Positions 18,244 through 30,255 of a stretch of DNA of 44,308 nt are shown piece after piece (the stretch's first letter is position 1; each line of letters opens with the position of its first letter). Below the pieces are notes generated by a model. That model was given only the letters and a program-made list of their open reading frames with translations. It was not told the DNA's origin and did not search any database. A program made the translations under genes and the position numbers. The stretch comes from Desulfonatronospira sp. (GTDB lineage Bacteria > Desulfobacterota > Desulfovibrionia > Desulfovibrionales > Desulfonatronovibrionaceae): the NCBI GenBank assembly GCA_007125075.1, contig SLDX01000090.1, positions 1-44,308 of the forward strand. The letters run 5' to 3'.

Positions 18244-19419
18244 TCATTGCCACAACCCGGGAATTTCCCTGGCGCAGTATCCACACCTGTTTTTGTTCAT
18301 GTGCATCCGGTCTATGATAAAGCCCACCCTGTGGATGATTATTTTCCCGCAATCAGGACAGAAGGTGTTTTCTCCTTCGTGTCCGGTTACTCTGGCCACA
18401 TAGACGAAGTTAAGCCCGGCGCCGAGCGCTGCTTCCCTGGCCCGGTCAAGGGTGGATACAGGAGTTCTGGGCAGTCCCGAAAGCCGGTACAGGGGATAAA
18501 AGCGGGCCAGGTGCAAAGGCACATCAGGACCCAGTTCGCCAGCTATCCATGAGCACATTTCTTTGATCATGCCCATATCGTCGTTTAGAGTAGGAATGAC
18601 CATATTGGTTATCTCCAGATGAACCCCCTTTTTCCTGAACATCCTCAGGGTATCCAGCACTGGATCGAGTTCTCCGCCCACTACCTGTCTGTAGAAATCC
18701 TGATCAAAGCTTTTGAAGTCCACGTTGGCTGCATGTACGTGTGCGCATAGTTCGCTCAAGGGTTCAGGCCGGATGTATCCGGCGGTATGCACCAGGTTGA
18801 GCAGGCCGGCCTTTAAGCCCAGCCGGGCTGTCTCCAGCATGTATTCATAGAAGACGACCGGTTCTCCGAAAGCAAAGCTCAAGGACTTAAGTTTTGCGGC
18901 CCGGGCGTGTTCAACCACTGCTTCAGGAGGCATGTGGTAAGCATGCAGATCTTCAGGATCAACCAGGGCCATGTCCCAGACTTCACAGAATTTGCAGTGC
19001 AGGTTGCACCCGGCCGTGGATACTGACAGGGCTCTGGTGCCGGGAAGGACGTGGAAAAAGGGTTTGCGCTCAACCGGGTCTTCCTGAATAAGCGCCGGAT
19101 TGGCGTAGGCCAGGGTGTAGCCTTTGCCGCGCCTGTTTTCCCTGACCCGGCAAAAAGATCTCTGATCCTTTTCCAGACGGCATTGTCTGGGGCACAAGGT
19201 GCATTTTACCGCTGAATGGGCAAGAGTCTCAAACCAGGAACCTTCCCTGGGATCCGTGAACCCTTTCACCGCCGGTTGAGCTGTTCCGGATGAAGGGAGG
19301 TATGCGGCTTCTGGTTTGCCTGGGGGCAAAACAGCGCAAAGCGAGCATGTTCCGGCAGCGCCCAGCTTTAAAAACCGTTTTCTGCTCATTTTATGAATTT
19401 TATTTATCTTCTCAGGCAT
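18244..19419 (-). CDS. AmrS-like radical SAM protein with twin-arginine-like export signal
   Basis: From ATG 19419 the product has 391 residues and resembles AmmeMemoRadiSam-type radical SAM enzymes (COG1180). It has an N-terminal CTLCPRQC cluster near 73-80, the core AGCNLHCKFCEVW near 140-152, and a C-terminal metal-binding-like set (FCPDCG, then CGYCAR) near 355-385. Its start carries a Tat-like signal, SRKRFLK at 12-18, where RK stands in for RR, then a hydrophobic segment with CSLCAV. The ATG lies inside the last codons of the upstream membrane gene (8-bp overlap), with AGGAGG four bases before it, so translation is coupled. No MEMO1 or AMMECR1 partner is nearby. The substrate is unknown. 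Confidence 0.83.
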   Translation of the reverse strand: MPEKINKIHKMSRKRFLKLGAAGTCSLCAVLPPGKPEAAYLPSSGTAQPAVKGFTDPREGSWFETLAHSAVKCTLCPRQCRLEKDQRSFCRVRENRRGKGYTLAYANPALIQEDPVERKPFFHVLPGTRALSVSTAGCNLHCKFCEVWDMALVDPEDLHAYHMPPEAVVEHARAAKLKSLSFAFGEPVVFYEYMLETARLGLKAGLLNLVHTAGYIRPEPLSELCAHVHAANVDFKSFDQDFYRQVVGGELDPVLDTLRMFRKKGVHLEITNMVIPTLNDDMGMIKEMCSWIAGELGPDVPLHLARFYPLYRLSGLPRTPVSTLDRAREAALGAGLNFVYVARVTGHEGENTFCPDCGKIIIHRVGFIIDRMHMNKNRCGYCAREIPGLWQ

Positions 19420-21844
19420 ACGACCTCCTGGAGACCAAAAGAATAAAAAAGGCTGTGACATTTGCCGCAGCAGCCAGCAGACAGCAGGCAATTATGCCCA
19501 GTATCGGGACCACCAGTACACTGGCCAGGGCCGCTCCCAGACAGGCCCCCAGAAGCTCTGCTCCATATACTCTGCCTGCGGATTTTTCTGCACGCCTGCT
19601 CACAGCCATGAAACAGGCGGCGGCCAACGGGTAATTTATGCCGTTTATCAGCCCGGCTGTAAAGGTAAGTATTGAAAATAATCCAAAAATTAATACCGGA
19701 GACTGAAGTGACGCTGTCAAGGGAAGGACAAGCCCGATCACTGCGGTCAGCGCGGCCATGAGCACCTGGAACAGGGCCAGGGTGTTAAGACTGGATTTGT
19801 TCGGAATAAAACGATGCGTGCAGTAAGCTCCCAGAGCCAGTCCAAGCATGAATAAGGCGACAATCAGTCCTACGGTTTCATAAATAAAGCCGTATATATT
19901 CTGGAAGGAAAAAAGCAGAGCTATTTGAAGGATCATTGTTGACATACCGGTGCTGAAGGCGGTTCCTGTAATTCCAAAGGAAGTGTCCATGAGAGATCCG
20001 CGGTTTCCAAGCAGCCTGAGCCCTGCCGCGGCAATAACGGGTGCAGCCATAAAGGGGAGGATCCACCAGGCGCGGATATGCAAAAGGGATTTGAGCAGGT
20101 CCCTCTCTCCGGTACGAGTCAGATGGTCCCAGTACATCAAGGTGTAATAATAGACTATGGGCTTAAAATCTGAATTTATGAACATGCTTTTTTCAACTGG
20201 ATTTAGCTTTGTTTCGGACATGAGCTGTTCGGAAAGTGGAACCGGGGTAATCGGAGGAGAAGGCGGTCCATGAATATGGGCAAGAGAATCTCGTCCATGC
20301 CGGCGAACGATCCAGTTGATGCGCAGAAGCCTGGTTTCCTCCAGCAGAATCTGAAAGTGAACAGGTGAAAAGCCCTGGGCGTGGACACCACGCTCATTAT
20401 AGCGTTCCCGCAGGATAAAAGGGTCTACAGAAACCTGGTCCTGATCGTCTGAGGCAAAATAAAACATGAACCTGTCTCCAGCTACAAGCACCAGGGAAAA
20501 TACATCGTTTAAAGTATGATAGACCGCGGCATTGCGGTTGGATATGGCCGTGCCCCGCAGATCAGGGGTAGAAGATGTTCCGGTGACCAAAACACCACCC
20601 CGATCCAGCAGTTTCCGGGTCTCCATGAAGAATTCACGGGTATAGAATCTGTTCAGGGCGGAAGTGGTGGGATCAGGCGTATCCACGATGATCAGATCAT
20701 AGGTTTGATCCGCCTGCTTTACGAACAGTCTGGCATCCGTATGTATCAGATTAACCCGGGGATCCTCAAGCACTTCCAGGGTTTCCGGGAAGACATACGG
20801 GGCGGCAGTCTGTATCAGTTTTTCATCTACCTCTATGTAATCGATTGACTGTACGGGGTGTCTGGCAATTTCCGCGAGAGTGCCTCTCAGCCCGCCGCCG
20901 ATGAGCAGGATCTTTTCAGGATTTTTGTGCTGAACCATGGCCAGATGGGCAAAGCTTACAGCCTCCTGCCCTTCCAGGCCAGGGACCAGAGTTTCCGGCC
21001 CGGCCGTACTGAAAACCAGATGTCCGCTTTGAAAGAAGCTGTACTGATCCTCAAGCTTGAGCACCGCGATGCTGCCGTGCTTGGACTGGCGGGTCTCCAC
21101 CAGTTCATGGTCAGGTGCGGTAAACGACCATTTAAGGCTGTGGGCAAACCCGTCCACTTTGTCCAGGAAATAAAACAGCGGGGCTCCAAGCAAAAAGATA
21201 AACAATATAAACAGGGGTATAAATGAAACTCTTGATCTTACGACCTGTCCCGGCAGGATCAGAAAAACCGCGGCAAGCATTACTCCTGCCGCAAGGACAG
21301 CGGATTGAAAGGGATTGAGCAGATGGACGAGAACAAAGGTGAACAGGATTCCTCCAACCATGTTTCCCGCGGCTTCGCTCATATAGGTCTTCCCTGCTCC
21401 GGTGGTGTCCGCAAGATTCTCCCTTTCCCGCCAGATTCTGGAAAGCAGGACGAATTGAGACCCAAGCAAAAGGCAGACCGGACCCATGAGCATAAAGCAG
21501 GATAAAAACATCTCCGGGAGAGTGAGCCAGGCACCTGGAAGCACGTCGAAAAAACCGCGAAGCGACCTGATGATCAAAATAGTTGCAGGCAGCAAGAAAA
21601 GCACTCCCAGAACGCTGATCTTCAGCCAGTAAACCGCCTGACCCATCCGGTCGACAAGATGGATGCCGATCCTGCTTCCCAGTCCGGTCCAGGCCAGCCA
21701 GGCCGAAAGGATGATGCCTATGGCCAGTTCATTGCCGTGGAAGACCATCAGAAGTTCGCGAAGCAGCAGTACCTGGCCGATCTGGGATACGACCCCAAGC
21801 ATGAGCACAGGATAGATATGAGCGGGAATTTTGCGGAATTTCAT
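19412..21844 (-). CDS. Membrane protein with spermidine-synthase-like domain
   Basis: The 810-residue protein has about seven transmembrane helices at 10-225, a soluble Rossmann domain at about 230-470, a linker, and about seven more helices at 600-810. The central domain resembles spermidine synthase SpeE: LLIGGGLRG for the SAM-type nucleotide, an acidic EVDEK, then VDTPDPTT with the likely catalytic Asp and a NRFYTREFF block. Such 'fused MFS/spermidine synthase' proteins are common in bacteria but mostly uncharacterised. The downstream radical SAM gene overlaps its end by 8 bp, implying joint function. Aminopropyl transfer is known for the family domain; whether this protein makes polyamines or modifies another substrate is open. 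Confidence 0.8.
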   Translation of the reverse strand: MKFRKIPAHIYPVLMLGVVSQIGQVLLLRELLMVFHGNELAIGIILSAWLAWTGLGSRIGIHLVDRMGQAVYWLKISVLGVLFLLPATILIIRSLRGFFDVLPGAWLTLPEMFLSCFMLMGPVCLLLGSQFVLLSRIWRERENLADTTGAGKTYMSEAAGNMVGGILFTFVLVHLLNPFQSAVLAAGVMLAAVFLILPGQVVRSRVSFIPLFILFIFLLGAPLFYFLDKVDGFAHSLKWSFTAPDHELVETRQSKHGSIAVLKLEDQYSFFQSGHLVFSTAGPETLVPGLEGQEAVSFAHLAMVQHKNPEKILLIGGGLRGTLAEIARHPVQSIDYIEVDEKLIQTAAPYVFPETLEVLEDPRVNLIHTDARLFVKQADQTYDLIIVDTPDPTTSALNRFYTREFFMETRKLLDRGGVLVTGTSSTPDLRGTAISNRNAAVYHTLNDVFSLVLVAGDRFMFYFASDDQDQVSVDPFILRERYNERGVHAQGFSPVHFQILLEETRLLRINWIVRRHGRDSLAHIHGPPSPPITPVPLSEQLMSETKLNPVEKSMFINSDFKPIVYYYTLMYWDHLTRTGERDLLKSLLHIRAWWILPFMAAPVIAAAGLRLLGNRGSLMDTSFGITGTAFSTGMSTMILQIALLFSFQNIYGFIYETVGLIVALFMLGLALGAYCTHRFIPNKSSLNTLALFQVLMAALTAVIGLVLPLTASLQSPVLIFGLFSILTFTAGLINGINYPLAAACFMAVSRRAEKSAGRVYGAELLGACLGAALASVLVVPILGIIACCLLAAAANVTAFFILLVSRRSYA

Positions 21845-22038: not shown

Positions 22039-22290
22039 TCACCCCTTCCTGATGAAAAAACTGACCAGACCTTTGTGTTTGGTTGTCATGCCCAGGAATT
22101 CATTTCCATTGCGCCTGCCCAGTCCAGGGATGTATGTCCTGGATCCAGGATCAGAGGCTATGATCTGCAGGATCTGGCCGGGCTTGATTTTTTCCAGAGC
22201 TTTTTTTGTTTTAAGCAGGGCTATGGGACAGCTGAATCTCTTCAGGTTCAAAACTTTGTCCGCTTTGATCTTTAAACTATCCACGATCAA
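22039..22290 (-). CDS. tusA: TusA/SirA-family sulfur-carrier-like protein
   Basis: The 83-residue protein has the TusA fold pattern: a beta strand, then the sulfur-binding Cys in FSCPIALLKTKKAL near residues 19-32, then the GQILQIIASDPGS strand and a C-terminal beta strand. TusA proteins carry a persulfide on this Cys and pass sulfur between cytoplasmic partners. The usual C-P-x-P motif is here C-P-I-A, so the second Pro is lost, as in some TusA-like paralogues. It is the last gene of the sulfur operon and overlaps torD by 14 bp. The stop is TGA, but the chain already has the normal length. Its partner here is unknown. Confidence 0.82.
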   Translation of the reverse strand: MIVDSLKIKADKVLNLKRFSCPIALLKTKKALEKIKPGQILQIIASDPGSRTYIPGLGRRNGNEFLGMTTKHKGLVSFFIRKG

Positions 22291-23005
22291 ATCCCATATG
22301 CTTTTGTTGTTCCTGACCGGTTAATTCCTCCGGCCGGTCATTGTTTTTGCCGCCCAGAAAATACAGCAGGTCCTTCATTGCCCCGGCTGAAAAAAAGAAG
22401 AATCTGCCCGGACCGCTGTCTGGAATTTTCCTCTGAAAGCGAATCACCCACGGAAGCATGAAATTACCGGAAAAATCAACGATTTCCAGGGTTAAACCGT
22501 TGTCTTGCTCCTGCATTTCCAGGCTCAAAAGAAGGTATAGATATTCAAGCTCAATACAGAGGTGGTCCGCAGGTTCCCCGGGATTGTCCCTGGAAAGGCC
22601 GGCGTCTTGCAGCCTGTCCAGCATGTCCAGGACCGGGTGCTGCATCAGGTGATTTCCGTTGTCGAGATAGCATGAATGATACAGTGGAGCACTGACACCC
22701 GCATGGGTATTGATAAAGATGCGCACAAACTCACTTTCGAAATCCTGAAGAATTTTTTGGCTCTGTTCCAGAGAATTTTGTCTTTGAATAAAATTTACTA
22801 TTTCAGGAGAGTCTTTGAACACAATCTTCTGCAGGCAGGACCATACCTGCGGGGAAAGATTCCAGAGTTCAGTCCAGTTTTTACGCTCCTGTCCACTCCA
22901 GAAGATGTTGATCAGCAGCCGCAAAGCATCCAGTATGCGTCTTTTTTCAACTGAATCGAGTGAGTGAAGTCCGCGGTCAAGAACATTTTTATTGCTCATG
23001 GACAT
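22277..23005 (-). CDS. TorD/DmsD-family redox-enzyme maturation chaperone
   Basis: The 242-residue, largely helical protein matches the TorD family, including the PADHLCIELEYL segment near 138-149 that mirrors the family EP-x-DH-x-x-x-E-L signature. Such chaperones bind the Tat signal of a molybdopterin enzyme and hold it in the cytoplasm until its cofactor is inserted. The obvious client is the Tat-dependent Mo enzyme encoded at 26006-28192 in the same operon. The ATG at 23005 has GGAG 7 bp before it and overlaps the end of the second rhodanese gene by 17 bp once the internal TGA of that gene is read through. This overlap itself supports the read-through. Confidence 0.85.
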   Translation of the reverse strand: MSMSNKNVLDRGLHSLDSVEKRRILDALRLLINIFWSGQERKNWTELWNLSPQVWSCLQKIVFKDSPEIVNFIQRQNSLEQSQKILQDFESEFVRIFINTHAGVSAPLYHSCYLDNGNHLMQHPVLDMLDRLQDAGLSRDNPGEPADHLCIELEYLYLLLSLEMQEQDNGLTLEIVDFSGNFMLPWVIRFQRKIPDSGPGRFFFFSAGAMKDLLYFLGGKNNDRPEELTGQEQQKHMGFDRG

Positions 23006-23492
23006 GGATCTGCTCCGGGTGTTTTATTTTCCAGACTTCAAATCCTGCAGGGTAGCGGTATACGTTTTCATAACCCAGGCGTACGGCCGACCTGGCCGCC
23101 AGTCCGCTTAAGAATCAGCGGAAATCCCGGCAGAAAAATACCACCCTGCGATGCTTATCCGGTCCCAGGGCATCCAGCATGGCCTGCCTTTTTTCCGGAG
23201 AAAGACCGAATCTGTCGCTCAGATCAAAAGGCAGGCTCCTGGCTCCGGGCATGGTGGAGTGCGCAAATTCGTAAGCAAAACGGGTGTCAATGACGGCCAT
23301 ATCCGAACCTTTTGAATACCGTGCGTACAGGCCTTCTGTAGTTATCAAACTGTAGCCGTCCTGAACCGCCTGATTTTCAGCCTGCTCCCACCAGATCTTT
23401 TCATCTTCCCCGGCATGGACCGGCAACGTTGTAAACATAAGTAAGATCCAGGTCCTCAAAAAATTTGTGAACACCTTTTTAAATAAGCGCAT
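22989..23492 (-). CDS. Exported single-domain rhodanese, probable selenoprotein (TGA = Sec126)
   Basis: Read through one in-frame TGA (23115-23117), the gene encodes 167 residues. Residues 1-27 form a Sec signal peptide ending near VHAG. A rhodanese domain follows (about 40-160): MAVIDTRF, then the active-site strand VVFFC with C121, RDFR, the TGA as residue 126, and LSGLAARSAVRLGYENVY, where the helix and GY-x-NV block continue the fold perfectly. Stopping at the TGA would cut the domain in half. A 6-bp hairpin with loop AGGUC follows at SECIS distance. ATG 23492 was chosen over an adjacent TTG. Rhodaneses transfer sulfane sulfur; Sec near the catalytic Cys should raise reactivity. Sequencing error is unlikely because the upstream paralogue shows the same arrangement. 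Confidence 0.8.
23083..23099 (-). promoter_or_regulatory. Putative bacterial SECIS hairpin, single-domain rhodanese
   Basis: Downstream of the TGA at 23117-23115 the mRNA folds as GCGGCC / GGCCGU (six pairs, one G-U) around the 5-nt loop AGGUC. Counting the U of UGA as 1, the loop is at nt 25-29. A G in the second loop position fits the bacterial SECIS rule, and the loop resembles AGGUCU of E. coli fdhF. The other rhodanese gene has its loop at the same place. Confidence 0.7.
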
Positions 23493-23600: not shown

Positions 23601-24515
23601 TTATTTGACTTCAAAGCTGCCGTCAGAGTTTATGGACAGATTGGCGTCCAGGTAATAGACCTCGAGATCAGGCCTCATGTCCTGAAAAGTGAAATAGGCC
23701 TCCCCGCTGCGGGCTCCTGTGGAGCAGTACAGAACTATGGGCTTTTCCGAAGTGTCGAATTCTTCCATGGCCGCCCGGATCTCGCTAACATTCATGCGTT
23801 TGGCTGTGGGCAAGTGGCCCTTCTCAAACTCATCCTGCTCGCGCACATCAATCAGCTGAACACTTTCCGGATTGGTGTTCACCACTTCCTTGAAGAACTG
23901 CTCATCTATGGATCCCGGGAACTGACCCTGTTTGATTTCCGAAGTTTCGCCCGGCTGTTCAGCCGGATCCGGAACAGTATCGGCTTCAGCGATATCCTCT
24001 ATGGTCCAGAGCTTGTAGCCGTCAGCGGCCCACTGCTCATCTCCCAAAGGGTAGACGGCCACGTTTTCATAGCCCATTTCTTCAGCCTTCCAGGCTGAAT
24101 CATGGCTCAGACGTCAGCCGGGGTTCATGCAGTAAAAGATCAAAAGGGTTGATTTGTCTTCAGGCAGAACTTCATGAGCTCTTTCCTCGAATTCGCTGTC
24201 CGGAAGGCTGACGGCTGTTGGGATGTGTCCGCGGTCATAGCGCGGGCGTTTGGGCCGGGCGTCAACGATCATCACGTCCTGCCTCGGCTCTTGAAGGACC
24301 AGATTCTCGCTGACTATGGACTTGACGAACCCGGTGGAGACAAAGGTGTGGAAAGGCTTGGGAACATCTGTCTCCACCTCAATCGTGGGTATTGCTTCTC
24401 CTGGTACATAGCCGGCTTCAGCCAGAGGAGCCTGCTTCAATGCGGCCTGGCCGAAAACAAGCGTTAAAGCCAGAAAAAGGCCGGCAAGAGTGTGTGTGCC
24501 AAATCTTTTAAACAT
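23601..24515 (-). CDS. Exported tandem rhodanese, probable selenoprotein (TGA = Sec134)
   Basis: With TGA 24114-24116 read as Sec the product has 304 residues. After a signal peptide (1-34, ending near AEA), rhodanese domain 1 spans about 60-165: VMIVDARPKRP, RGHIPTAVSLP, the active strand LLIFYC with C129, MNPG, the TGA as residue 134, then RLSHDSAWKAEEMGYENV. Domain 2 (about 205-304) has IDVREQDEFEKGH and a standard Cys loop, YCSTGARSG, with C264. So domain 1 uses Cys-x4-Sec and domain 2 plain Cys. AGGAGG lies 8 bp before the ATG. It follows the cytochrome b gene by 32 bp. The periplasmic location matches the Mo enzyme, which it may supply with or relieve of sulfane sulfur. Confidence 0.82.
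24081..24099 (-). promoter_or_regulatory. Putative bacterial SECIS hairpin, tandem rhodanese
   Basis: After the TGA at 24116-24114 the mRNA has a perfect 7-bp stem UUCAGCC / GGCUGAA around loop UGGAA, placed at nt 25-29 counting the U of UGA as 1. Outside it GCCAU and AUGGGC can add five pairs with one bulge. G in loop position 2 fits the bacterial SECIS pattern. Confidence 0.72.
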
Positions 24516-24547: not shown

Positions 24548-25255
24548 TTAAATTTTTTCCTTGACCTGCCGATACCACAGCTCATGATGATGTCTGGCAT
24601 AGCTTTCCGGAACAACTCCGGTCACCATGGATCTGAATGCCGGCCTTTCATCCCTGGAAACTGCGGCCATATAGATGTGCACCAGCAGTCCGGCCAGGGC
24701 CAGTGCGGCAAAGAGAAAATGAATGGTCCTGGACCAGGCGACCAGAGTCACGTTATCGATGACCATGGTGGAAAGAAACATGATCACTCCGGTGATCACC
24801 AGGAATATTCCTGCTATTATGGACAGCTGGGCAAAGGCTTTCTGTCCGGCATTGTAAAATCCCTGAGGGGGTATGTCCGTGCTCATCCCGAGCCTGTTCA
24901 GGGCTTTGTCCCCCAGGGTAAGCTGAATATTTCTCTTGATTATCCAGGTAAAATCCCTGGACGGGCTTATATTGACGGCCTCTCTGACAAAGGCCAGGCT
25001 GTGCCTGAATCTTGCCAGGATATATCCCAGCATGACCACGGCCCAGAAAAGGCCCAGATACATGTGCACATTGAGCAGCATCTCCGGGCTGCCGAACAAA
25101 GCGCGCATGGCATTGGGCCACCAGGCTCCCAGGGGGTTTATGTCTCCACTTAGCAGGCCCAGTCCGGTCAGAGTCAGAATAATCCAGCAGGCGGCGTTGA
25201 ACCAGTGGATGAACATGCTGCCTCTATCGTGACGATGGATCATTTTTTCCTGCAT
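24548..25255 (-). CDS. Cytochrome b membrane subunit (FdnI/PhsC-like)
   Basis: The 235-residue protein has four transmembrane helices and four His in the positions expected for two b hemes: H17 (MFIHWFN), H64 (NVHMYLG), H179 (TIHFLF) and H193 (LVHIYM). This is the formate dehydrogenase gamma/thiosulfate reductase cytochrome b architecture, which exchanges electrons with the quinone pool across the inner membrane. It starts 4 bp after the ferredoxin-subunit gene ends, with AGGAGG about 10 bp before its ATG. With the Mo and FeS subunits it makes a periplasm-facing three-part quinone-linked oxidoreductase. Confidence 0.9.
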   Translation of the reverse strand: MQEKMIHRHDRGSMFIHWFNAACWIILTLTGLGLLSGDINPLGAWWPNAMRALFGSPEMLLNVHMYLGLFWAVVMLGYILARFRHSLAFVREAVNISPSRDFTWIIKRNIQLTLGDKALNRLGMSTDIPPQGFYNAGQKAFAQLSIIAGIFLVITGVIMFLSTMVIDNVTLVAWSRTIHFLFAALALAGLLVHIYMAAVSRDERPAFRSMVTGVVPESYARHHHELWYRQVKEKI

Positions 25256-25259
25256 ATTC

Positions 25260-26006
25260 TCAAGCCTCCTCCTGCTTTTTCTCTTCTTGTCCGGAAGAAT
25301 CCGGAGAAGTTAAAAGCTGTTTGATGAACATTGCCGCCACACCCAGTCCGGACAGTCCGACCGCGATTTTAAACAAAGGATTGACAAAACCGGTCATGGC
25401 TCTGTGCGCAGCCGGATATTTCACCTCACCGGGCCAGTCCATGGGTTCCGTGGCAGCCAGGTAATACATGTTGGGCCTGGTATCCTCGGGCTCGGTGGTG
25501 ATTTTGACTGTTTCCCTTGTCCCGAGCAGGTTGGCGGCCTCGCTTTCAGGGTCATTCAAGTCCCCGAAGATCCTGGCCTTGGTGGGACAGGTGTCCACAC
25601 AGGCCGGCTGCAGGCCCATGGCCAGACGGTCCTGACAGAAGTCGCACTTGTCCGGGACCCGCCTGACCGGATGCCTGTAGCGGGCCGAATAAGGACAGGC
25701 CACGATACAATTGCCGCATCCTATGCACAGTCCTTCATTAATCCTTACCATGCCGGTATCGTCATCCTTGTAAGTTGCTCCGCTGGGGCAGGCGTGAACA
25801 CAGGTGGGATTATCGCAGTGCATGCAGTTTCCCGGTTGAAAATGGGCATAAGCGTACTTTCCCATGGAAAAATCAGCCCGCTTCTCCTTGATCCAGTTGC
25901 GCCAGTACCCTCTTGGCAGATCATGCTGGACCTTGCAGGAAGCCATACAGGCCTTGCAGTCGATGCACACCGAAGAATCGACGACCATGGCGTATTTCTT
26001 TTTCAT
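25260..26006 (-). CDS. Four-cluster [4Fe-4S] electron-transfer subunit with C-terminal membrane anchor
   Basis: The 248-residue protein has four Cys groups for four [4Fe-4S] clusters: CIDCKACMASC near 14-24, CMHCDNPTCVHAC near 61-73, CIGCGNCIVAC near 93-103, and CDFCQ followed by CVDTC near 121-140. This is the HybA/FdnH/PsrB pattern. A single hydrophobic helix at about 205-228 and a charged tail resemble the anchor of FdnH-type subunits. It passes electrons between the Mo subunit and cytochrome b. Its ATG overlaps the Mo-subunit stop by one base (TGATG), so they are tightly coupled. No own export signal is seen; it is probably co-exported with the Tat-dependent partner. Confidence 0.92.
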   Translation of the reverse strand: MKKKYAMVVDSSVCIDCKACMASCKVQHDLPRGYWRNWIKEKRADFSMGKYAYAHFQPGNCMHCDNPTCVHACPSGATYKDDDTGMVRINEGLCIGCGNCIVACPYSARYRHPVRRVPDKCDFCQDRLAMGLQPACVDTCPTKARIFGDLNDPESEAANLLGTRETVKITTEPEDTRPNMYYLAATEPMDWPGEVKYPAAHRAMTGFVNPLFKIAVGLSGLGVAAMFIKQLLTSPDSSGQEEKKQEEA

Positions 26007-28192
26007 CAGCTCACCTTCCTTACACTGACCAGAGTTTCGTGCATGGCCGCGTTTCCTGAGATTTTATCGTGGGTATCCTTCAGTATTTCGGCTATGCTGG
26101 CGCCTTTTTTGTAAATCAGGCTCATCTGCGGAGAAAGCGAGCCGAATCCGGTGGCCATGTACACAGTCTGACTTTCTATGCCTTCATCAATTTCCAGGCG
26201 CAGCCTGTCTTTGCCTGTTTCGCTTTCAACCTCCACCAGATCGCCGTGCCCGAGTCCCAGGCGGGACGCAGGTTCGGGATGCATGTGCAGGGTGTTTTCG
26301 TCCATAAACTCGGTCAGCAGTTCATTATTGGTCCTGCTCTGGGTGAATATCGCAGTCCTGCCGACCACCAGTCTGAACTTATCCTTACCCGGGTTGTCAG
26401 GTCTGCGGTAAACGGGCATGGGATCATCTCCGCTTCTCTCGTAACGCTGGTTGTAGATTTCCTTGACGCCGCTCAGAGTTTTGAGCGGCGAGCCTGCATA
26501 GATGCCGTAGACTTTGCTCGGATTAAAGTATATCCCGTCTTTGCGCAGGATTTCCAGGGCGCCGTCCAGTCCCTCAACCTGTTTTTCCCTGTACTCGTCT
26601 ATGGTGAAATCAAAAGAGTGGCCAAAGCCCATTCTTTTGGACAGCTCCTGCACAATCCACAGCGGAGGCCTGGATTCGAACATGTCCTCCACCACCGGCT
26701 CTCTCATGAAGGCGCATGCGCAGGCTGAAGACCCCTGCAGGGGATGAACCGGGTCCTTGCGCTCCAGGAAGCTGTTGCCGGGAAGGACCACGTCGGCAAA
26801 CCAGGCTGTATCGCTCATGAAGATGTCGATGTTGACGAAGAAGTCGATGTTTTCCAGCATGCGTATTGTTTTTTGGCGATTGGGGGCGGTCTGCATGAAA
26901 TTGGTCTTAAAGGAAAACCAGCCTCGAATGGGGTAGGGCTCTTCGGATATAACCGACTCGCGCATCAGCTGAAACGACCCTATGGCATCAAACAGACCGG
27001 TGGCTTTACCGGCTTCAACCCGGTCAAAAGGATTGTCGTCATACCAGGGGATATCGTAGTATGGGGATTTCACTCCCACCTCCCTGGCGGCCAGAAGTCC
27101 TCCGGGGCGGTCCCAGTTGTCCAGAAGCACATTGGTGATGGCCATGGCCCGTCTGATCTGAGTGGAATCCTCATAATCAGAGGTTCGCCGTCCAGGATAA
27201 ACCATGGCCCTGGGGGCGGCTTCAGTGATTTCTTCGGCGATGCGACGGATATCTTCGGCCGGGATTCCGCATTCCTTTTCCGCCCATTCCGGGGGATACT
27301 TGGCCACATGCTCCACAAATTGTTCATAGCCAAATGTCTTTTCCGGACAGCAGTATCTCTCCCCCTTGACTATTTCATGGCACAAGGCCAGAAAGAAGGC
27401 CATGTCCGTACCGGGCTTTATCTTATACCACTCATGGGCCAGAGCCGCGGTCTTGGTAAATCTGGGGTCCAGGACCACAATCTTGCAGCCTTGTTTTCTG
27501 GCTTCAATCAGGTCGATGGTGTCAGGGGTGATGAAGGCTTCCAGAGGATTGGCCCCGACAATGATTATATACCTGCTGTGCAGCACGTCCGGGTAGGGCA
27601 TCTCGCCGAAGGTGTCCAGATAAGCCCTGTTCCGGCTTAAAAGGCATAAGGATTCGTGGTTGGTTATGTTGTAGGAGCCGAAGACATCTGCGAACTGTTG
27701 AACAAACCTTGACTGTGAATCCACTCCCGGAGTAAACATCACCCCGCAGCGGGTATGCTTTTCCGCGATTTCAAGCAGTTGCTCGGCAGTATAATCCAGA
27801 GCTTCCTCCCAGCTGATACGCTCCCATTTGCCTTCACCGCGCCTGCCGGTGCGTCTTAAAGGGTACTTCAGCCGGTCAGGACTGTAGATATGCTTTACAG
27901 CAGCATTGCCCCTGGCACAGATCATGCCCCTGGACTTCAGGCATTTAGGGTTGGGATCAAGTTTTTTAATCACCCCGTTCTGCTTGAGGGCGATCATGCT
28001 GCAGCGATTGAAGCACATATCACATGCCGTAAAATGAGATGTAACTTCTCCAGCCGGTCTGGATCCAGCGGCTTCAGCTTCGGGGACCAGAGTCCTGACC
28101 AGGGGGCCCTGCAACCCGGCTCCGATTGCTGCGGCAGCCAGAGAGGTCTTTAAGAACCTTCTTCTGCTAATGGGGGTCTTGCCTTCCTGCAT
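26006..28192 (-). CDS. Tat-exported molybdopterin oxidoreductase, PhsA/PsrA-type
   Basis: The 728-residue protein has a Tat signal (RRRFLK at 10-15, hydrophobic to 29). The proximal [4Fe-4S] site follows (C57, C60, C64 and probably C92 in ICARG), then the Mo-bisPGD domains and a C-terminal cofactor-binding domain. The likely Mo ligand is C183 in NHESLCLLSR, as in the PhsA/PsrA thiosulfate/polysulfide reductase branch; the Cys-His or Sec-His pair of formate dehydrogenases is absent. It should reduce, or oxidise, a small sulfur species in the periplasm, and the neighbouring rhodaneses and TusA support sulfur chemistry. The exact substrate is open. GAGGA precedes the ATG. A 13-bp hairpin separates it from the cytochrome c gene. 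Confidence 0.9.
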   Translation of the reverse strand: MQEGKTPISRRRFLKTSLAAAAIGAGLQGPLVRTLVPEAEAAGSRPAGEVTSHFTACDMCFNRCSMIALKQNGVIKKLDPNPKCLKSRGMICARGNAAVKHIYSPDRLKYPLRRTGRRGEGKWERISWEEALDYTAEQLLEIAEKHTRCGVMFTPGVDSQSRFVQQFADVFGSYNITNHESLCLLSRNRAYLDTFGEMPYPDVLHSRYIIIVGANPLEAFITPDTIDLIEARKQGCKIVVLDPRFTKTAALAHEWYKIKPGTDMAFFLALCHEIVKGERYCCPEKTFGYEQFVEHVAKYPPEWAEKECGIPAEDIRRIAEEITEAAPRAMVYPGRRTSDYEDSTQIRRAMAITNVLLDNWDRPGGLLAAREVGVKSPYYDIPWYDDNPFDRVEAGKATGLFDAIGSFQLMRESVISEEPYPIRGWFSFKTNFMQTAPNRQKTIRMLENIDFFVNIDIFMSDTAWFADVVLPGNSFLERKDPVHPLQGSSACACAFMREPVVEDMFESRPPLWIVQELSKRMGFGHSFDFTIDEYREKQVEGLDGALEILRKDGIYFNPSKVYGIYAGSPLKTLSGVKEIYNQRYERSGDDPMPVYRRPDNPGKDKFRLVVGRTAIFTQSRTNNELLTEFMDENTLHMHPEPASRLGLGHGDLVEVESETGKDRLRLEIDEGIESQTVYMATGFGSLSPQMSLIYKKGASIAEILKDTHDKISGNAAMHETLVSVRKVS

Positions 28193-28278: not shown

Positions 28279-28614
28279 TTATCCGCACCTTTCCGGAGTG
28301 GGAGAGTCTGCCGCTCCCTGGTGCAGATAGGTGTGAATGTGTATCAGCAGTTCTTCAGATACCTCCCAATGCTCATAACATGGCAGGGCTTGAACGTTTT
28401 CAAATACCTCATTCCATTCAGCCTGACGTTTGGCGTCCGGTCCCAGGTATTCCCCGGCGGGCTCACGCTGGGGGTTTTCCATGTGACACGGCCTGCATTC
28501 CTGGCGGAAAAGAAAACGCCCCTGACGCGGGTTGCCGTCGAGCATGGCCAGGGAGATGCCTACCTGGGTGATGAAAATTGCTGCAGCCATAAAGACAATG
28601 ATCAACCTTTTCAT
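28279..28614 (-). CDS. Exported monoheme cytochrome c
   Basis: The 111-residue protein has a signal peptide (1-23) and one heme c site, C40-R-P-C43-H44. It also has candidate axial Met (M45 or others) and a short C-terminal helical part. It is a small periplasmic c-type cytochrome, first gene of the operon that continues with the Mo enzyme, so it probably carries electrons to or from that enzyme. AGGAGGAG lies directly before its ATG. The sequence around the heme (RQGRFLFRQECRPCH) resembles class I cytochromes in sulfur-reductase loci. The fold is partly inferred; the heme motif is certain. Transcription probably starts from the sigma-54 promoter near 28701-28715. Confidence 0.85.
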   Translation of the reverse strand: MKRLIIVFMAAAIFITQVGISLAMLDGNPRQGRFLFRQECRPCHMENPQREPAGEYLGPDAKRQAEWNEVFENVQALPCYEHWEVSEELLIHIHTYLHQGAADSPTPERCG

Positions 28615-28715: not shown

Positions 28716-28808
28716 GTTTTTTTTCTGCAGCTTTATTATTTGTAAAATATTGTTTTTTATAGATTTTTTATAATGATAAAAATGTAGACTGTTGCTAAAA
28801 GCAGAATG

Positions 28809-28840
28809 TATGTTTAAACATATGTTTAAACACATGTTTA
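28809..28840. promoter_or_regulatory. Tandem palindromic repeats, candidate activator-binding site
   Basis: Two copies of TATGTTTAAACA follow each other, plus a partial third (CATGTTTA), with a 12-bp period. Each full unit contains the 10-bp perfect palindrome TGTTTAAACA (28811-28820 and 28823-28832). The array is about 100-130 bp upstream of the candidate sigma-54 promoter and just before the activator gene start, the usual place for an enhancer site, and could also give autoregulation. The DNA between is very AT-rich, which would favour looping. Confidence 0.55.
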
Positions 28841-28866
28841 GGAGGGCCAACACCCGGGGTAATACG

Positions 28867-30255
28867 ATGAACAGGAAAAAATCAGTGAATTTATACTGCA
28901 GGGATATTGTGGAGATCATGCAGGAGGGGCTTCTGGTGGTTGCCGATGACGGAACAATTCAGATGGTCAATAAAGCTTTGGAAGACATCACCGGGTACAG
29001 CAGGGAAGAGCTTCTGGGTCAACCATGCACCATATTTAAATGCGATGCCTGCAAACTGATAAGGGGAGGGCCAGGCCGATCCTGGTGCAAGCTCTTTAAG
29101 CACAGGGAACAGATAAAGCGAAAATGTCATCTGGCGCGAAAAGACGGATCATATGTTACGGCTATAAAGACCGCCACGGTTTTATGCGATGAACAGGGCC
29201 AGACCCTGGGAGCGGTAGAGATTGTCACCGACATTTCCGAGCTTGACAGGATGGACAGGGAGCTCAAGCAGCTTTCCAGGGTTCTGGATGAAGAATCCAC
29301 TTTTCAGGGCATGGTTGGCCGTTCGTCCCGGATGAAAAATGTTTTTGAACTCGTGGAGAAGGCTGCTCAGAGCGATTTTCCGGTATTCATCAGCGGTGAA
29401 TCAGGCACGGGCAAAGAGCTCGTGGCTCAGGCCATTCACAAGCTCAGTCCGCGCACGCATCAGCCCTATATGCAGGTGAATTGTGCCGCTCTTAATGAAT
29501 CACTTCTGGAAAGCGAACTTTTCGGGCACGTCAAGGGGGCATTCACCGGAGCTATGCAGCACCGCAAAGGCCGTTTCGAAGCCGCAGACAAGGGCTCGAT
29601 CTTTCTTGATGAAATCGGCGATCTGCCCATGTCCACGCAGGTAAAACTGCTCAGGGTCCTGGAAACCAAGTCTTTTGAACGCGTAGGAGAGAACAGGACT
29701 GTTTCCGTTGATCTGCGTTTAATAACCGCGACAAACAAGAATCTGCCTGAGCTGATATCCGCGGGCAGATTCAGGGAAGATCTATTTTACCGCATCAACG
29801 TCATTCCCGTCATTCTCCCTCCTTTAAGGGAAAGAAAAGAAGACATTCCGCATCTGGCTGAATTTTTTATTCAAAGGCTGTCCAGGAAAAACAATAAAAA
29901 CATAAAAGGGATCAATCCTGAGGCGATGCGCATTTTCATGCAGTACTCCTGGCCTGGAAATGTCAGGGAAATGAAAAGCGCCCTGGAGTACAGCTATGTC
30001 CTGACAGTTGGCCCGATGATCCGGCCTGAACACCTCCCCGAAAACATGCTCAAAGGTGCACAACCGCAGACGGTTCAGCGTCAGGCAGAGGGCATAAGCG
30101 ACATGCAGCAGCAGAAACAGGAGCTGATCAAAGCGCTTAAGCAGAGCAGGGGCAACAAGTCCCAGGCGGCCAGAGCGCTTGGCATCAACCGGGTGACCGT
30201 ACTCAACAGAATGCGCAAGTTCGGAATTGATCTGCAAAAAGATGTTGTTTACTGA
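28867..30255 (+). CDS. Sigma-54-dependent activator with Cys-rich PAS domain
   Basis: From ATG 28867 the protein has 462 residues. The PAS domain (about 12-130) contains an unusual Cys cluster: C54, C59, C62, C74 and C87 around CTIFKCDAC, suggesting a metal, Fe-S or thiol sensor. The AAA+ domain follows, with GESGTGKE and an intact GAFTGA loop, Walker B FLDEIGD and an arginine finger. A C-terminal Fis-type helix-turn-helix is at about 425-460 (NKSQAARALGINRVTV). The frame continues upstream through the tandem repeats (a TTG at 28792), giving a repetitive MFKHMFKH peptide; this is probably regulatory DNA, so the later ATG was chosen. There is no receiver domain. It likely controls the divergent sulfur operon. 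Confidence 0.85.
   Translation: MNRKKSVNLYCRDIVEIMQEGLLVVADDGTIQMVNKALEDITGYSREELLGQPCTIFKCDACKLIRGGPGRSWCKLFKHREQIKRKCHLARKDGSYVTAIKTATVLCDEQGQTLGAVEIVTDISELDRMDRELKQLSRVLDEESTFQGMVGRSSRMKNVFELVEKAAQSDFPVFISGESGTGKELVAQAIHKLSPRTHQPYMQVNCAALNESLLESELFGHVKGAFTGAMQHRKGRFEAADKGSIFLDEIGDLPMSTQVKLLRVLETKSFERVGENRTVSVDLRLITATNKNLPELISAGRFREDLFYRINVIPVILPPLRERKEDIPHLAEFFIQRLSRKNNKNIKGINPEAMRIFMQYSWPGNVREMKSALEYSYVLTVGPMIRPEHLPENMLKGAQPQTVQRQAEGISDMQQQKQELIKALKQSRGNKSQAARALGINRVTVLNRMRKFGIDLQKDVVY

Follow-up and report, generated by a model that had tools for sequence, protein, structure and literature searches.

Two predicted exported rhodanese selenoproteins with a Cys-x4-Sec loop beside a PsrA/PhsA-like molybdoenzyme in Desulfonatronospira

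Does an in-frame TGA in the active-site loop of a rhodanese gene from Desulfonatronospira sp., a sulfur bacterium of soda lakes, end translation, or is it read as selenocysteine (Sec)? The question arises in a window of 44,308 nucleotides (contig SLDX01000090.1, the whole stretch of DNA analysed), where a sequence-only reading had joined two adjacent open frames on the minus strand into one gene, here called Rhd1 (23601..24515, -). The boundaries given for the two frames were correct; both lie in the same frame, and a single TGA (24116-24114, -) is all that separates them. The product of reading through this codon, 304 aa long, matched PF00581 over two rhodanese stretches (2.6e-28, 98.9 bits; curated cut-off 22.2), bearing out the proposal that a continuous rhodanese runs across both halves. 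The loop of domain 1 reads Cys129-MNPG-Sec134 (CMNPG-Sec), with the TGA as codon 134, so that the predicted Sec lies five residues past the catalytic Cys129, at loop position 6. The loop of domain 2 is an ordinary CSTGARS containing Cys264, and all three residues thus have the positions originally assigned to them. The N-terminus is a signal-peptide-like segment, in agreement with the predicted export of the protein. In a structure model of Rhd1, Cys129 ends a strand and Sec134 stands just ahead of the helix that follows, an arrangement typical of rhodanese active sites; the confidence of the model was modest (pLDDT 67, pTM 0.44), and no distances were therefore taken from it. A fold search of the PDB with this model confirmed the rhodanese fold and nothing beyond it.

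The split selenoprotein gene proposed from the sequence was borne out, but it is one half of a pair, and the other half had been missed. Directly 3′ of Rhd1 lies Rhd2 (22989..23492, -), which encodes a second predicted exported rhodanese selenoprotein of 167 aa with the loop Cys121-RDFR-Sec126. Its in-frame TGA is at 23115..23117 (-), and its product scored 44.5 bits with PF00581 (cut-off 22.2). Because the same Cys-x4-TGA layout occurs in the two adjoining genes, we treat them as a pair of selenoprotein genes. At the TGA codon, 40 of the 45 genomes with an Rhd2 homologue encode Sec and the other five Cys; several of the homologues carry a C-terminal AhpC/TSA-like domain. Two further rows of the Rhd2 search, with A and R at loop position 6, were pattern errors in other frames and were discarded.

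Decoding of UGA as Sec requires dedicated machinery, and the assembly to which the window belongs (2.17 Mb in 149 contigs, 97% complete) was searched for selA, selB, selC and selD. All four were present. The selA and selB genes lie on one contig (C33), the tRNA-Sec gene (selC), with anticodon UCA, on another (C83), and selD on a third (C47, locus L077); selD has an in-frame TGA of its own and is itself a selenoprotein candidate. With a tRNA-Sec (UCA) present, an alternative genetic code is not needed. Among the 73 genomes with these rhodaneses selA was found in 70. The three lacking a selA match were one genome 77% complete, which has Sec forms, and two with Cys-only Rhd1. Among the papers searched, none links Desulfonatronospira thiodismutans with selenocysteine.

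Homologues of Rhd1 and Rhd2 were sought in 297 genomes of the order. Eight Rhd1 relatives from the family of the window have TGA at the same codon, giving nine Sec genes with the window included, and the frame downstream of the TGA is kept in all nine genomes (53-72% identity over the alignment). Their loops read CMNPGU, CMNPAU, CQNLAU, CQNFAU, CQNYAU and UQNLAU. Around 40 more distant genomes have Cys at position 134 of Rhd1 (CGGLHC and similar). In one member of the genus a Sec copy is accompanied by a Cys paralogue (65% identity) whose loop reads CQDTAC (L081:8204-9127, -). Sec loops also occur in other families of the phylum, as CGGPTU and CGGYTU in one gene, CGGLAU and CGGYGU. When all loci were counted with a pattern that left position 6 free, the 194 rhodanese domains had Cys in 123 cases, Sec in 71, and nothing else. 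At position 134, no residue besides these two was seen in homologues. Seven other matches to the pattern, with P, R, G, V or I at position 6, lay outside rhodanese genes. Cys129, Cys264 and Cys121 are conserved, except that Cys129 is replaced by Sec in one relative. Two homologues of Rhd1 contain more than one Sec: L104 (G060) has two in a single loop, UQNLAU, and in L187 (G600) the CGGPTU and CGGYTU loops belong to two domains of the one gene.

These comparisons also bear on the simplest alternative, that the TGA is a real stop and the gene yields a truncated protein or is a pseudogene. TGA does terminate other genes of this genome, and it is one base from TGC. However, the conservation of TGA in nine genomes together with the reading frame beyond it, the Cys otherwise found at this codon, the same layout in the adjoining gene in 40 genomes and the presence of the sel genes all argue against a stop, which we regard as highly improbable. 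TGA in eight relatives and Cys in every other homologous domain exclude chance. The sel genes, the Cys/Sec exchange and the conserved TGA instead favour the original reading of this codon, and we conclude from the sequences that UGA in both Rhd1 and Rhd2 is almost certainly selenocysteine, decoded by the genome's own SelA, SelB, tRNA-Sec and SelD.

A bacterial SECIS-like hairpin, UUCAGCC-UGGAA-GGCUGAA, was found downstream of the Rhd1 TGA (24081..24099, -) and in all nine Rhd1 Sec genes. Its 7-bp stem (UUCAGCC/GGCUGAA) starts 14 nt past the UGA, and the apical loop UGGAA follows after 21 nt. One stem pair, A-U in this gene, is C-G in most relatives and U-G in one, the changes on both sides being synonymous. 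As the amino acids SAWKAE force part of this hairpin, its strength was compared with synonymous recodings of the same peptide. The mean z was -1.96 for the nine Sec genes and -0.42 for 76 Cys domains (Mann-Whitney p = 1.4e-5; p = 1.3e-5 against 27 Cys sequences with TGGAA), so the Sec genes fold more strongly here than recoded versions do; kinship among the sequences, which are not statistically independent, makes both p values optimistic. The Cys paralogue carries a silent G-to-A change by which the stem is weakened. The corresponding region of Rhd2 was not more strongly folded than synonymous recodings (mean z -0.29) and gave no consensus fold.

A tree of the domains was built after masking of the positions that hold Cys or Sec. 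It requires 15 Cys/Sec changes, at least six of them on well-supported branches. To judge by these sequences Sec looks derived within Rhd1, and the Rhd2/TsoB side of the tree is mostly Sec with some Cys. TsoB (NF045694), a rhodanese/DsbD fusion-like selenoprotein reportedly defined by Haft and Tolstoy in 2025, is the closest known system. The N-terminal domain of TsoB aligns with Rhd2 (99.7 bits), the two proteins fall together in the tree, Sec occupies the same sixth loop position as in Rhd1 and Rhd2, and TsoB and these rhodaneses occur together in relatives of the window's genome. TsoB also has Sec at the catalytic position, a DsbD membrane reductase part and a thioredoxin, whereas Rhd1 and Rhd2 keep the catalytic Cys, lack the DsbD part and belong to a molybdoenzyme operon. 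Membership of TsoB was rejected for both proteins, which scored 50 and 100 bits against a cut-off of 805, have no DsbD domain and carry CxxxxU; no NCBIfam model reached its cut-off on either.

The suggestion that Rhd1 is a distinctive form of selenoprotein was upheld, with one qualification. A 2026 review (PMC13188914) lists five rhodanese selenoprotein forms, UxxS, UxxG, CxU, UxxG and UxxxxU, and CxxxxU is not among them. Since TsoB (UxxxxU) is so close a relative, Rhd1 is a variant and not a wholly new kind. Forms 1-4 of the review likewise have Sec in or near the active-site loop of a rhodanese. In the UxxG and UxxS forms Sec appears, as read from the motifs, to replace the catalytic Cys that Rhd1 and Rhd2 keep, and the spacing of the CxU form is unlike CxxxxU. 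A Cys counterpart of the loop is known from a solved structure, BH2092 (PDB 3o3w, 3nhv), which reads C-WGPA-C with Cys at the Sec position; unlike Rhd1, this is a single-domain protein, from Bacillus halodurans, and no selenium is known in it.

The genes around Rhd1 form an operon that begins with a small exported cytochrome-c-like protein with a CRPCH motif (28279..28614, -), next to a divergent PAS/sigma-54 activator (28792..30255, +). There follow a PsrA/PhsA-type molybdopterin oxidoreductase with a Tat-like signal (26006..28192, -), a PsrB/PhsB-like 4Fe-4S electron-transfer subunit (25260..26006, -), a membrane subunit of the cytochrome b561 type, PhsC/FdnI-like (24548..25255, -), Rhd1, Rhd2 and usually, as here, a TorD-like chaperone (22277..23005, -). 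The arrangement is found again, with some variation, across the order and in one further family of the phylum. The nearest solved relative of the Mo subunit is the Thermus structure 2vpw (E 3.3e-109; next structure 3.2e-54), and the subunit is closer to PsrA/PhsA than to Fdh, Arr or Ttr. With the PhsA model it scored 467 bits against a cut-off of 694 and is accordingly not filed as PhsA. The Mo sulfur enzyme noted beside the rhodanese is thus a PsrA/PhsA-like enzyme, and its operon has a Mo subunit, an FeS subunit and a membrane anchor in common with PsrABC/PhsABC.

A PsrA/PhsA-like gene adjoins Rhd1 in most of the loci examined, over several families. In more distant lineages that also bear Sec, Mo-FeS-NrfD genes precede the tandem rhodanese; an NrfD/PsrC membrane subunit is present in two of these lineages. 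The Cys paralogue at L081 lies a few kb from a different large molybdopterin oxidoreductase and FeS pair, not the PsrA-like one, and four distant Rhd1 loci (L189, L191-L193) have no PsrA-like gene in the stretch examined; the partnership is therefore not obligatory.

Geobacter ExtH (NF040901) is likewise an exported multi-domain rhodanese encoded in an electron-transfer operon, although the operon differs. It raises the alternative that the Cys/Sec pair is chiefly there to bind or reduce metals or the oxyanions of metalloids (selenite, tellurite, arsenic). Cys/Sec pairs are able to bind metals, the operon of ExtH, itself a rhodanese lipoprotein of several domains, is tied to selenite and tellurite reduction, and one Rhd1 homologue gave a weak score with the ExtH model (28.9 bits, cut-off 200). 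Rhd1 itself (P0001) and P0002 did not match NF040901, the surroundings of Rhd1 showed neither an ext-type porin nor multihaem cytochromes, and its conserved neighbour is the PsrA/PhsA-like enzyme. A metalloid function is for these reasons improbable.

Starting from the Sec coding, the Cys/Sec exchange, the export signal and the operon, all of which are read from sequence, we infer a persulfide chemistry, a role for Sec, a partner enzyme and a direction. The catalytic Cys of rhodaneses forms a persulfide, and Sud is a periplasmic rhodanese that acts as a sulfur carrier. Once exported to the periplasm, the proteins would accept sulfane sulfur from thiosulfate or polysulfide on the catalytic Cys (Cys129 of Rhd1, Cys121 of Rhd2), which becomes a persulfide. 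This persulfide would be attacked by Sec, which follows five residues later where the next helix begins, so that sulfide is released or the sulfur passed on, and the resulting Cys-S-Se-Sec bond would then be reduced. A second Cys or Sec at loop position 6 is unusual; the exchange between Cys and Sec only, the double-Sec forms, the AhpC/TSA-like domain and the DsbD part of TsoB together point to a redox pair in the loop. Rhd1 and Rhd2 would be redox-active carriers of sulfur for the PsrA/PhsA-like molybdoenzyme of their own operon, a selenium-containing counterpart of the Sud-Psr system. Sud is a small Cys rhodanese, and the window has two selenoprotein rhodaneses, one of them tandem, within the operon. 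A sulfur-carrier role for the molybdoenzyme appears fairly probable, and resolution of the persulfide by Sec is more tentative. The explanation as a whole, genuine selenoproteins acting as redox sulfur carriers with Sec resolving the Cys persulfide, is the one we favour, with reasonable confidence. Disproportionation of sulfur compounds is recorded for members of the genus (strain table of PMC12998232), which fits the proposed substrate without proving it.

The same disproportionation would also suit an oxidative role, in which Rhd1 and Rhd2 collect zero-valent sulfur that the Mo enzyme makes from sulfide, or a role in periplasmic thiol repair, with Sec as no more than a guard against overoxidation. 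Such molybdoenzymes are reversible in principle, and the AhpC/TSA-like domains of Rhd2 homologues are consistent with these roles. Against this, the characterised PsrA/PhsA enzymes are reductases. Sequence cannot give the direction, and we consider this alternative unlikely.

The reductive sulfur-carrier reading can be extended. Rhodaneses may have turned into selenium-dependent oxidoreductases (persulfide to selenenylsulfide, with sulfide release) wired to a PsrA/PhsA-type enzyme, Sec having several independent origins at loop position 6, and maturation of the Mo enzyme may be tied, through Sec insertion, to the supply of selenium. The last step is suggested by the overlap of Rhd2 with the TorD-like start; we hold this extended version to be rather doubtful. 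Rhd2 and the TorD-like gene share 17 nt, the end of the one and the start of the other (22989-23005, -), and relatives have similar overlaps (L080, L102, L103 and L104). Given this arrangement, Sec readthrough might be translationally coupled to synthesis of the chaperone.

Rhd1 and Rhd2 represent two predicted selenoprotein subfamilies, distributed across Desulfovibrionales and other members of the phylum, whose genes a standard gene finder would read as truncated or as pseudogenes. Sec does not take the place of the catalytic cysteine here: it occupies a second position in the loop, where Cys is the only alternative, and the two have been exchanged repeatedly. This points to an overlooked class of redox-active rhodaneses (C-x4-C / C-x4-U / U-x4-U) tied to anaerobic sulfur metabolism, in which natural Cys/Sec pairs are at hand for testing the contribution of selenium.

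Elsewhere in the window, there is an 80-nt overlap (19412-19491, -) between the gene for a spermidine-synthase-like membrane protein and a radical SAM gene of the AmmeMemoRadiSam type. Both genes also follow Rhd1 in L100.
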